Shown: piece by piece, positions 50,556-55,408 of the stretch | Numbering within the stretch: position 1 is the stretch's first letter | Layout: each line of letters begins with the position of its first letter | Assembly: GCA_003215655.1 (NCBI GenBank) | Contig: QCKB01000007.1 | Location: 1 to 64,000, forward strand | Length of the DNA stretch: 64,000 bases | DNA from: Prochlorococcus sp. AG-409-J16 | Lineage (GTDB): Bacteria; Cyanobacteriota; Cyanobacteriia; PCC-6307; Cyanobiaceae | Direction of reading: 5' to 3' | Made by a program: the position numbers and the translations under genes | The notes under the pieces: generated by a model | The model's database searches: none | The model's input: the letters and a program-made list of their open reading frames with translations, nothing else | Told to the model about the DNA's origin: nothing

Positions 50556-51764
50556 TTAAAGCATTTTCAAAACCTTAGCTGCCACAGCGCTACTGCCACC
50601 TGATAAACCCATTCTTCGCAAGCCCATCTTCCCCAAAAATTTGCAAACCTGACTGTTAACAAGAAGAAAGCTCAACTTTTCAGCCAATATTTCTTTAGAC
50701 CTACATGGAGTTACAGCTCCTCCCAAAAGACGACTTTGCCTAATAGCAAACCCTTTAGTGAATTGTGGTCCTTTCCCTGGCAATGAAAGTGCAGGAATAC
50801 CAAGTCCAACTAACTGTTCAGTAGCAGTACCAGCATTAGCGATACCAATTTCCACCCATGAGGCCCATCGAGAAAATTGTCCTACCCCAATGATTATGAA
50901 TGCCTCTCCTTTCTCCCAATAATGATCTACACAAAAGGGATTTTCAGAAAATGTACGTTGAGAATATCCACGCAAAAGTAATTCTGATTGCAATTCTTTG
51001 AGTGAAGGGTTTGACCCAATAGGAACCAAAATTGCTAGTGGATATTGAAAGTTTAATAATTCCAAGGAATCAAGAAGTCTTTTGAAGTTGGTTAAGGCTT
51101 CAGGGACGCGACTTCCACATAGCAATAACAAGCGTCGAAAGTTTTTTAAAGATGTTGGAATGGGCTCTGCTTTTAGACCGTCCATCATTGGATTCCCTAG
51201 GGCTAAAGCAATCACACCATGTCGCTTTAAGCCCCTTGCAGTTAAACGGTCTCTAACTGCCACAAACTCGCAACGAGAAGACCTCATTAAGTGCCATTCC
51301 CAAGGGTCCCATTCAGTTCCTTTTAAGGAATGGTAATAATCACTGAAGGCTTTCCCTGGTCCACTCCTCCATGTGTAATCACTCTTTGGCGTACCGATAA
51401 ATCCATAGCACCCTCCACTGCTCCAAGCAAAGAGCAACGGCAGGAAATCGCCCACAGCAAGTATTTTTCGCCCTGTTACAGCAGCATGACGAACAATTTT
51501 CCATTGATTAAAGCTCAAGCCAATTAAACCAGAAGCGATATCTGCACACAGTCCAACAAAACTTTGGTTACTAAAGCCACCACTTGGCAATCGGGCTAAT
51601 GGGCCAATCCGCCGCAGCCATCCTGAGGCAATTGCTTGATCAAAAGCTTTACCTTCTCCGACTAGTGGAATAACTTCAAAGCAAATATCTGGCTTTAGGG
51701 CATGCAAGGCTTCGAGAACTCGAAGAGCGATGAGGTCCTCACCATGCCCATTCGAAACCACCAA
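50556..51764 (-). CDS. Lipid-A-disaccharide synthase-related glycosyltransferase
   Basis: About 400 residues of the cyanobacterial LpxB-related family. The N-terminal LLVVSNGHGEDLIALRVLEAL is diagnostic, and GIANAGTATEQLVGLGIPALSLPGKGPQF is the donor-site region. Substrate unknown. The frame stays open through the tRNA-Cys antisense but that part is not coding. The first conventional start is TTG 51764 (or GTG 51761), which trims the first strand. An ATC at 51788 gives ISDWTSPLLVVSNGHG. Confidence 0.85.
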   Translation of the reverse strand: MVVSNGHGEDLIALRVLEALHALKPDICFEVIPLVGEGKAFDQAIASGWLRRIGPLARLPSGGFSNQSFVGLCADIASGLIGLSFNQWKIVRHAAVTGRKILAVGDFLPLLFAWSSGGCYGFIGTPKSDYTWRSGPGKAFSDYYHSLKGTEWDPWEWHLMRSSRCEFVAVRDRLTARGLKRHGVIALALGNPMMDGLKAEPIPTSLKNFRRLLLLCGSRVPEALTNFKRLLDSLELLNFQYPLAILVPIGSNPSLKELQSELLLRGYSQRTFSENPFCVDHYWEKGEAFIIIGVGQFSRWASWVEIGIANAGTATEQLVGLGIPALSLPGKGPQFTKGFAIRQSRLLGGAVTPCRSKEILAEKLSFLLVNSQVCKFLGKMGLRRMGLSGGSSAVAAKVLKML

Positions 51765-51821
51765 TAAAGGAGAGGTCCAGTCGCTGATACGATCCGCAGA
51801 AGGGAATAACGAATCCCTGAC

Positions 51822-51892
51822 GGCGGCATGGCCAAGTGGTAAGGCAGAGGATTGCAAATCCTTTATCCCCAGTTCGAATCTGGGTGCCGCCT
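51822..51892 (+). tRNA. trnC-GCA: tRNA-Cys(GCA)
   Basis: 71-nt cloverleaf. Acceptor GGCGGCA pairs with TGCCGCC, the anticodon loop is ATTGCAAAT-type with anticodon GCA, the T-arm is AGTTCGAATCT, and the discriminator is U as in other tRNA-Cys. It marks the left border of the accessory segment. Confidence 0.95.
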
Positions 51893-51990
51893 TCTTACCT
51901 TTCTTGAGACCGATTCCTGTAATCAGTTGCAAGAACTCAATTATTAGGTCTCTTTTTCTCATAAAACGGATCTTTTCAGCCCTAAGAACT

Positions 51991-52012
51991 GGTCGGTAAG
52001 TGGTCGGTAAGT
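51991..52012 (+). repeat. Tandem 11-bp direct repeat
   Basis: GGTCGGTAAGT occurs twice head to tail, about 100 bp after tRNA-Cys. The second copy is part of the hairpin that follows. Confidence 0.75.
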
Positions 52013-52865: not shown

Positions 52866-53099
52866 TTAATGAAATATCAATCTATCAAGAAGAATAGCAA
52901 TAATTAATCCTCTAAAAAAAGAGATCCAAATCAAGCCATAATCACTAATTCCAAGCTTTCTCTTCTCTCTATCAATAGATCTCTTATGAATATCAATCAA
53001 ATTTTTAAAGCTCAAAGCAGGTTTTAATGGAAGGGATTCTCTCTTCAAAGGAATAGGAATACGGACATATTTTTTTTTGCCTGCGGATAGTGGACTCAT
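52866..53099 (-). CDS. Small membrane protein coupled to recombinase-like gene
   Basis: 77 residues: a basic N-terminal half (KKKYVRIPIPLKRESLPLKP) and one C-terminal transmembrane segment (YGLIWISFFRGLIIAILLDR). Function unknown. Its ATG overlaps the stop of the upstream recombinase-like gene by 4 nt, so the two are likely translated together. No known partner of serine recombinases looks like this. Confidence 0.65.
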   Translation of the reverse strand: MSPLSAGKKKYVRIPIPLKRESLPLKPALSFKNLIDIHKRSIDREKRKLGISDYGLIWISFFRGLIIAILLDRLIFH

Positions 53100-53743
53100 G
53101 CTGCTAAAGCTTCATTTTCCATGATAATCCTACGAATAGTAGAAAGTGCAAGACCTGTTTGAGCACGTATTGATCTATAAGAGCAACCTTCACGTCTTAA
53201 ACGCAAAACAAGATTTTCTTTAATTGGATTTGTTTTGGGCCTACCTCCAATATTTACACCATCTTTGTTCCTTTCTTGAAATCTTTCATATTTCCTTTCT
53301 TGAATAAGAGACCTTTCAGCTTCAAGAAGAGAGCTCAAAATCCCAATCAAAGCTAATCCCTCATCTTGCAATAACCTTGTATTTACAGCGCCATCAATAG
53401 TCCTTAGAGATATCCCCTTCTCATACAAGTTCTTAATGAGTCCCAAGATCTCTTCAACGGAACCGGCAAGACAAAAAACATTTAAAACTACTAATTCATC
53501 CCCACATCCCAACGCCTTCAAAGCAGCCTGAAACTGTGGCCTTTGTATCTGCAAAGTTCTAACGCTAATTGCCTCTTGAAAAATCTGAGAACAGCCACAA
53601 TTTTTCAAAGCCAAAAGCTGCTCATGCTCAGAGTGATCTTTTAACCCCGTAAGAGCATATCCAACCGACTTCGTTTTTGTCCTCCCAAGAAAAGGTTCTC
53701 GATTCCTCAAGAAAAGCGGAGGGACGCGCCTAAACTTCCTCAT
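53096..53743 (-). CDS. Catalytically dead serine-recombinase-like DNA-binding protein
   Basis: 215 residues with the layout of resolvase/invertase proteins. The N-terminal domain (about 25-150) reads VGYALTGLKDHSE where active enzymes read GYARVSxxxQ, so the catalytic Arg and Ser are Leu31 and Gly33. The later LDRLGRS motif is VFCLAGS, losing the Asp and both Arg; only the Arg in QRPQF is kept. The E-helix (EAERSLIQERKYERF), the GGRPK linker and a C-terminal helix-turn-helix (CSYRSIRAQTGLALSTIRRI) are intact. Recombination should be impossible, but DNA binding and dimerisation are plausible. Probably a regulator; a palindrome overlaps its own promoter. Confidence 0.8.
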   Translation of the reverse strand: MRKFRRVPPLFLRNREPFLGRTKTKSVGYALTGLKDHSEHEQLLALKNCGCSQIFQEAISVRTLQIQRPQFQAALKALGCGDELVVLNVFCLAGSVEEILGLIKNLYEKGISLRTIDGAVNTRLLQDEGLALIGILSSLLEAERSLIQERKYERFQERNKDGVNIGGRPKTNPIKENLVLRLRREGCSYRSIRAQTGLALSTIRRIIMENEALAA

Positions 53744-53760
53744 CCTATGTACTGAAAACT

Positions 53761-53779
53761 TATAGTTTTTATAACTATA
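53761..53779 (-). promoter_or_regulatory. Palindrome overlapping the -10 of the recombinase-like gene
   Basis: TATAGTT, 5-nt spacer, AACTATA: perfect 7-bp arms, 18 nt upstream of the gene's ATG and overlapping the predicted -10 (TATAGT). Position and symmetry suit a repressor site, possibly autoregulatory. Confidence 0.5.
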
Positions 53780-53801
53780 GAAGAATAAAACAAAAAATCA
53801 A
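53774..53801 (-). promoter_or_regulatory. Predicted promoter of the recombinase-like operon
   Basis: On the minus strand TTGATT (53796-53801), 16-nt spacer, then TATAGT (53774-53779), five of six consensus bases in the -10. Confidence 0.4.
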
Positions 53802-54139
53802 TTTTTTATTGAAAATAGAAGATATTAACTAATTAAATAAATACCTTTTAAATTTGTACTTAAAACTGTATTGAAAACATAAGAACGACGAAGTGTTCGT
53901 TTTCCTTTTAAAACGTTCGTTATTTTTAGAATAAAGAACATAAACCATTTATAAATAAGCGTTTTAAAGCTAGCCTAGTGTTTCAATATCCTACTTAAAA
54001 GAACGCTCGGGAAACACAAGGCACATGAATTCATAACCAAAACAAAGGCTTATCCTCAAAAAAATAAAAACTAAGGCTATTTCAGTAAAAAACTTGAAAA
54101 GTCAATCAGGGCAAAGTAAAAATATATCAGCTAGAAAAA
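53802..54139. other. AT-rich intergenic region with GAACG/CGTTC motifs
   Basis: About 340 nt without a gene, very AT-rich. GAACG or its complement recurs: GAACGACG near 53883, TGTTCGTTTT near 53893, CGTTCGTTAT near 53914 and GAACGCTCGG near 54000. The spacing is irregular, so these are possible regulatory sites and not an array. Confidence 0.4.
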
Positions 54140-54385
54140 ATGCTATTGAACAGAAGTCTTTTATTAGTGGCAATTGCTTTAATCACTTCACAGGCTATGG
54201 CATTGGGGCAAGAAATGCTTTGTCAAATAAAGTATGGTGAGAAAGATCTTGATAAAAAATACATGACATTTCCTTTTTTACTTCTTAAAACTCGCTGCCA
54301 TCAAATTGGTGTTGAATTCAATGAGCTTGGTGACTCGATGCCTGAAAAGCCTATTTACGCTTGCTGCAGAACTAAAGAGATATAG
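54140..54385 (+). CDS. Small secreted cysteine-containing protein
   Basis: 81 residues. A signal peptide (MLLNRSLLLVAIALITSQ, AMA-LG-type cleavage near residue 22) precedes a mature part with four Cys (residues 28, 53, 75, 76). Exported to the periplasm, probably disulfide-bonded. No family recognised. Stands alone in the accessory segment. Confidence 0.6.
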   Translation: MLLNRSLLLVAIALITSQAMALGQEMLCQIKYGEKDLDKKYMTFPFLLLKTRCHQIGVEFNELGDSMPEKPIYACCRTKEI

Positions 54386-54730: not shown

Positions 54731-55408
54731 TCAAGAACCTGCAGACTTAGTAAGGCTTGAAGCATCTGGGGTTACCACTACTGGCATACTGCTTTTTGCA
54801 TTGCCAGTACGAATAGGAACTACCTTTACAGGTGGAATTGGAGTAGGGGTTGTTGCAGGTGGAGAATTTTCTGGGGTTTTATCTTCTGGTTGTGGCTCAT
54901 CTTCCTTTGAACAAGCTTCCAATGCTTCCCTAAGCAAAGAATCAAAAGTCGCCCCAGGAAGTCGGTGACGAGCAACTTCAAGAAAAGTACGTGGTAAGGA
55001 TTCTGCTGCTGCTCCCCTTAGCGCAGGGTTATTACGACGGTGTTCCTGCTCATCCTCAATGGCACGAAGGAAGCGCCTAGTCACATCTCGTTTTGTAGAT
55101 GCTTTGATAAAAGTATCTCTATCACTTGGACCATTCCCTGCATCTTGCTCCAAATCGGTAATACGTCTATCAAGGCTTTCTAGAACCTCTTCCGCTTCTT
55201 TAGAAATATGTGCCAGTTGTCCATCAGACAGGCTTGGCAAATCGGCCACGTAAACCTTTCCGTGGTCCCTTAAGGTTAAAAAAGTAGGTCTTGGCCCAAG
55301 TCGATTGGCACCATTGATCTCTGAACCTTGATTTAGAGGCCTTCTAGGGGGAACTGGACCAGCTGAACTGCGACGACGAGTTACTCGTTGAGGATTCTCA
55401 AACGGCAT
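54731..55408 (-). CDS. Conserved-looking hypothetical protein with Pro-rich tail
   Basis: 225 residues. Basic, Arg/Pro-rich N-terminus (NPQRVTRRRSSAGPVPPRRP), then a helical charged core (DLPSLSDGQLAHISKEAEEV; RRFLRAIEDEQEHRR), then a Pro/Thr tail of about 50 residues. No signal or membrane segment. I do not recognise the family. It lies 140 nt after purM, same strand. Confidence 0.8.
   Translation of the reverse strand: MPFENPQRVTRRRSSAGPVPPRRPLNQGSEINGANRLGPRPTFLTLRDHGKVYVADLPSLSDGQLAHISKEAEEVLESLDRRITDLEQDAGNGPSDRDTFIKASTKRDVTRRFLRAIEDEQEHRRNNPALRGAAAESLPRTFLEVARHRLPGATFDSLLREALEACSKEDEPQPEDKTPENSPPATTPTPIPPVKVVPIRTGNAKSSMPVVVTPDASSLTKSAGS

Follow-up and report, generated by a model that had tools for sequence, protein, structure and literature searches.

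The resolvase of transposon Tn3 (TnpR) regulates its own synthesis by binding at res (PMC7157771), and MrpR, from the Bacillus subtilis prophage SPbeta, is a protein of tyrosine-recombinase fold that became a DNA-binding repressor after the loss of its catalytic residues (PMC10516654). In picocyanobacteria, an element inserted at tRNA-Phe or tRNA-Cys carries a tyrosine integrase together with 'a small serine recombinase' (Flamholz et al., PMC10187409). This report concerns a gene on the reverse strand of a 64,000-nucleotide stretch of Prochlorococcus sp. AG-409-J16 (contig QCKB01000007.1, positions 1 to 64,000; termed here the window), which lies near tRNA-Cys and encodes a small serine recombinase that lacks the catalytic residues of its active relatives.

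The window protein shares with the Tn3 and gamma-delta resolvases their fold, their helix-turn-helix (HTH) domain and the occurrence of half-sites in the promoter; it differs from them in the loss of five key residues, the catalytic Ser among them, and in that its half-sites are tandem as well as inverted. Like MrpR, it appears to be a recombinase fold turned DNA-binding protein, with repression likewise conceivable; MrpR, however, is a prophage master repressor with a repeated operator, derived from a tyrosine recombinase, whereas here a serine recombinase is encoded on the chromosome. By score the nearest solved sequences are the Gin and Hin DNA invertases (4m6f, 3uj3), which actively invert DNA, whereas no evidence of an invertible segment was found at this locus. 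The serine recombinase of Flamholz et al. (PMC10187409), on islands at tRNA-Cys and tRNA-Phe in Prochlorococcus and Synechococcus, probably belongs to the same family as the active relatives described below; the paper's passages on that element, however, name it just as a possible resolvase and mention neither inactive conserved copies nor sites. No serine-recombinase counterpart of MrpR was found in the literature searched, most subscription journals lying outside that search.

The favored reading, to which a rough probability of 0.72 is assigned, is that the gene encodes a domesticated, catalytically dead and autoregulated DNA-binding protein, whose ancestor would have been a small serine recombinase of picocyanobacterial islands at tRNA genes. 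Without exchanging strands, such a protein might act on a small number of cognate sites that related islands carry or have left behind. A relative is a near-core gene of high-light Prochlorococcus, a very abundant phototroph. In a way that can be tested, this reading would tie a conserved DNA-binding protein to the regulation of island movement at tRNA genes; the family also provides a natural series of catalytic losses in which the change from enzyme to DNA-binding protein can be studied.

Catalytic loss and selection on the DNA-binding part

The frame is open over its 215 codons and without lesions. Residues 35-163 match the Pfam family Resolvase (E = 8.5e-16), and the protein matches solved Gin, Tn3 and gamma-delta proteins. 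In an AlphaFold2 model (mean predicted local distance difference test score, pLDDT, of 86.8), which Foldseek matches to Sin, Tn3 and gamma-delta, the E-helix is unbroken (residues 122-161) and the C-terminal helices are present. The fold, the long E-helix and the C-terminal HTH of an active small serine recombinase are all there; the active site is not. When aligned with gamma-delta resolvase, after which catalytic residues are numbered here, Arg8, the nucleophile Ser10, Asp67, Arg68 and Arg71 are replaced by Leu31, Gly33, Phe90, Cys91 and Gly94, respectively, the corresponding motifs reading GYALTG and VFCLAGS; Y6, R45, D59, E118, R119, E124, R125, E128 and the GGRPK/HTH segment are retained. 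The original prediction, made from the letters of the window, had described just these losses together with an intact E-helix, GGRPK linker and HTH in an undamaged frame, and the alignment, the model and the reading frame bear it out on each point. The protein is thereby firmly predicted to be catalytically dead.

Its homology (54% identity to L093), including the diagnostic HTH, places it in the small serine recombinase family of picocyanobacterial islands, and homologs were found in 119 of the 300 genomes of its taxonomic family that were searched; no second Resolvase-family gene was found in the window genome. Median identity to active proteins is 71% in the arm/HTH part and 41% in the catalytic domain. 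In 2000 simulations an active relative was let drift neutrally until its catalytic domain had diverged as far as that of the window protein. The frame stayed free of stops in 0.1-0.15% of the runs, and no run (0/2000) combined an open frame with the HTH identity that is observed; neutral drift is rejected for the window gene taken by itself. Neither the lesions nor the relaxed selection of a pseudogene were found, but rather the combination expected of a repressor derived from a recombinase, that is, lost catalytic residues and a DNA-binding part under selection.

Among 82 near-complete copies that were scored, all five checked catalytic residues are present in 40; 34 lack the Ser and 8 another residue. 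Intact copies are often island-borne and close to tRNA-Cys, -Ser, -Phe or -Asn, and most of the 14 defective copies from streamlined genera occupy the same tRNA-Cys locus. Well-supported branches of the tree force the Ser-dead label to change three times or more (long branches make the placement uncertain); the tree needs related genes in marine cyanobacteria to have lost catalytic residues several times. Median identities over catalytic domain, E-helix and HTH are 33/17/66% between defective copies versus 61/69/74% between active ones, and the E-helix, though kept in the window protein, is the most diverged segment of its defective sisters. Two other affiliations were rejected: large tyrosine recombinases entered the family through a clustering artefact, and for a phage origin no close viral relatives were found, the best phage match (30%) being to DNA invertases.

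In a scan of named genomes the window protein alone gave no match, and a small alignment used as the query led to high-light Prochlorococcus, including MIT 9302 and MIT 9314. There the defective copy is near-core (63 of 66 good genomes, nearly all with open frames) and occupies a different fixed position, close to lipA, gltB and psaL/psaAB-like genes (names read from the sequences). Within this clade the ratio of nonsynonymous to synonymous substitution rates (dN/dS) is 0.23 for the catalytic domain, 0.36 for the E-helix and 0.07 for the HTH, and the frames of all 80 close homologs are free of internal stops. Position 10 is Thr in 75 of these 80 and Ser in 4, all with Arg71 changed to Lys, and other high-light copies have Ile or Ala; R8, D67 and R68 are retained. 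The high-light copies are probably catalytically dead as well.

HTH constraint, several catalytic losses, near-core status, open frames and the rejection of drift together give good support to the earlier claim of a gene kept rather than decaying. The frequent frameshifts that it had named as grounds for doubt were not seen. Homologs with an intact Ser, named on the same grounds, do exist, mostly as island-borne relatives; of the 80 close high-light homologs, four have Ser10, together with Lys71.

Candidate operators at recombinase promoters

A 12-base-pair (bp) half-site, TGTTCYAAAAAC, emerged independently from the upstream regions of the active, the defective and the high-light genes, and a half-site model trained on active genes only is enriched 7- to 13-fold upstream of the defective and high-light ones. 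Clusters of at least two half-sites occur, among 98 fetched loci, only at recombinase promoters. Like the half-sites of this family, those of gamma-delta resolvase have an outer TGT. The high-light promoter contains two conserved stretches (pairwise identities of 0.73-0.92 and 0.83-0.97) around a middle of about 0.4. A search for an inverted perfect pair, TGTTCYAANAAS..TTRGAACA, gave no matches.

The half-sites of the window promoter have a diverged form. The palindrome to which the original prediction had pointed is real, and unique in the 1.84-Mb window genome, where the pattern TATAGTTN{0,8}AACTATA has its single place at 53761-53779; in genome G031 the sole place of this pattern is just upstream of the ortholog. 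As main operator, however, the TGTAYTKAAAAC half-sites at 53748-53759 and 53855-53878 appear as likely as the palindrome. Under the favored reading, the HTH and minor-groove arm would have been kept to bind 12-bp half-sites such as TGTWYYNNAAAC, and the protein would most likely regulate its own gene, presumably as a repressor, by occupying the cluster of half-sites and the palindrome of that gene's promoter (53748-53878), a role suggested by the likeness to Tn3 TnpR at res. The conserved cognate half-sites lend indirect support to the claim of site-specific DNA binding, and that of a regulator is plausible for the gene's own promoter; it does not extend to a larger regulon, and the sole conserved distal target found, in the high-light clade, flanks a tRNA attachment site rather than a promoter.

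Several points weigh against a domesticated autoregulator. The genus of the window is represented by one genome, and the dN/dS figures come from the high-light clade, not from the window gene; in that clade, Thr10 (Ser in 4/80) and Lys71 may leave some residual activity. The model trained on active genes scores just one weak site in the window promoter, and the palindrome could belong to another regulator. Finally, the window genome yielded no target other than the gene's own promoter, the other half-sites examined there lying mostly within genes.

Sites near tRNA genes and competing readings

Away from the recombinase gene, a tandem double half-site was found in 13 of the 39 genomes with a defective copy versus 0 of the 261 others, one coding match being excluded (Fisher p = 4e-13, the genomes not being independent and the pattern having been designed after examples from defective-copy genomes had been seen; the reversed control gave 3 matches in all). 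Most high-light matches fall within the convergent gap between the 3' end of tRNA-Asn and a 119-residue open reading frame (ORF), where, in nine genomes, doublets lie about 121-130 and 189-217 bp (about 126 and 205) from the CTCCCCGGGCG tRNA-Asn attachment core, whether or not island DNA separates that core from the tRNA. Islands of about 0.2-2 kb occur between a repeated CTCCCCGGGCG core and tRNA-Asn in several genomes (L244-L259, L225-L235). In G292 (L243:8063-8148) two tandem triplets, six half-sites in all, lie at a distance of about 220 bp from tRNA-Phe; the small ORF next to them has relatives downstream of active recombinases. The location of such arrays by tRNA genes and not at promoters suggests that they take part in island recombination or are left over from doing so.

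These arrays form the basis of a tentative alternative, that the protein is primarily a guardian of attachment sites or an architectural factor that binds arrays beside them and modulates island integration and excision by tyrosine integrases, with autoregulation secondary. This would account for doublets that persist with or without an island, for the G292 array, and for the location of the window gene and its active relatives beside tRNA-Cys, -Ser, -Phe and -Asn. Yet no such array beyond the promoter was found in the window genome, some of the high-light genomes have none (G174, and G292 at its tRNA-Asn), and the arrays could themselves be res remnants whose recombinase gene was lost. A broader conjecture, that in streamlined marine cyanobacteria dead serine recombinases repeatedly evolved into autoregulated chromosomal proteins that guard tandem arrays of 12-bp sites, set at a constant distance from tRNA attachment sites, and thereby control the entry and exit of islands, is speculative.

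A second alternative, which seems doubtful, is that the protein acts in trans as a repressor or dominant-negative immunity factor, binding the promoters or res sites of incoming active relatives and blocking their recombinase. Defective and active copies do coexist in G069 and G144, the HTH is 66-71% identical to that of active copies, and the half-sites are common to both; but the half-sites in the window promoter and in certain sister promoters have diverged from the TGTTCC form of active copies, and the window genome lacks an active copy.

A host transcription factor with a many-gene regulon is improbable. In the window genome a half-site, TGTTCTAAAAAG, and a weaker companion lie about 160 bp upstream of psbA (L262:3395-3425; G000, contig C5), where they may occur by chance. 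Single half-sites, however, show no genome-wide enrichment, their counts equaling those of a reversed-pattern control in ten genomes, so that a large regulon is unlikely. Two further candidate targets were rejected: the second conserved high-light match examined falls within coding sequence, in a gene that neighbors a umuC-like ORF, and a cluster with the same half-sites (G000, contig C3) is inside a sugar-phosphate mutase-like gene.

That the protein is still an enzyme, of altered chemistry with Thr as nucleophile in the high-light clade, is very improbable: the high-light copies do keep R8, D67 and R68 alongside Thr10 (or, in 4/80, Ser) and Lys71, but position 10 is Ile or Ala in other high-light copies, and in the window protein the five key positions are occupied by Gly, Leu, Phe, Cys and Gly. 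Least credible of all is a decaying mobile-element remnant whose frame is open by chance, for although the family contains many fragments and interrupted copies, the simulations, the HTH constraint, the near-core status in the high-light clade and the promoter footprints speak against it.

The locus and its neighbors

Table 1. Features of the recombinase locus in the window (the palindrome is given without strand).
Feature	Position	Strand	Basis
tRNA-Cys, locus landmark and island hotspot in relatives	51822..51892	+	locus comparison; published integrase element at tRNA-Cys
77-residue ORF, probably a coupled gene, with an ATGA overlap at the recombinase stop codon	52866..53099	-	ORF list; L050/L093 homologs
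Small serine recombinase, 215 residues, predicted catalytically dead	53096..53743	-	frame, Pfam, structure matches, alignment, AlphaFold2
GGRPK arm and HTH, residues 161-210, constrained part	53114..53263	-	near-invariant columns in dead and active proteins
Candidate half-site TGTACTGAAAAC	53748..53759	+	4 bp before start codon
Palindrome TATAGTTTTTATAACTATA	53761..53779	.	unique place of pattern in genome
Candidate tandem half-sites TGTACTTAAAAC-TGTATTGAAAAC	53855..53878	+	only tandem-pattern match in genome, control 0
Divergent 81-residue small Cys-containing protein, probable signal peptide, intergenic region in common with recombinase	54140..54385	+	locus comparison

The interval from the 50556-51962 ORF and tRNA-Cys to the gene at 54731 and purM (Table 1) is a conserved locus for about ten defective copies, the majority of those from outside the high-light clade, and their divergence tracks that of purM (rho = 0.49, the pairs not being independent). 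The sole Phage_integrase match of the genome is on another contig than the window gene and its adjoining tRNA-Cys. The ORFs called at 51730-51999 and the N-terminus of that at 50556-51962 run through tRNA-Cys and are artefacts.

The 81-residue protein has four invariant Cys and no Pfam family. Its gene is divergent from the recombinase in several loci, yet elsewhere it is present in genomes without a recombinase, and its role as an obligate partner was therefore rejected. The 77-residue ORF likewise matches no Pfam family, and its homologs are separate genes in L050 and L093. Active relatives also have small ORFs downstream, different ones, and in several cases the overlap is about 4 bp, as though this were a place of cassette exchange. 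At the conserved locus of L053 and L060 the recombinase gene has the reverse orientation with respect to its neighbors, which possibly reflects old inversions.
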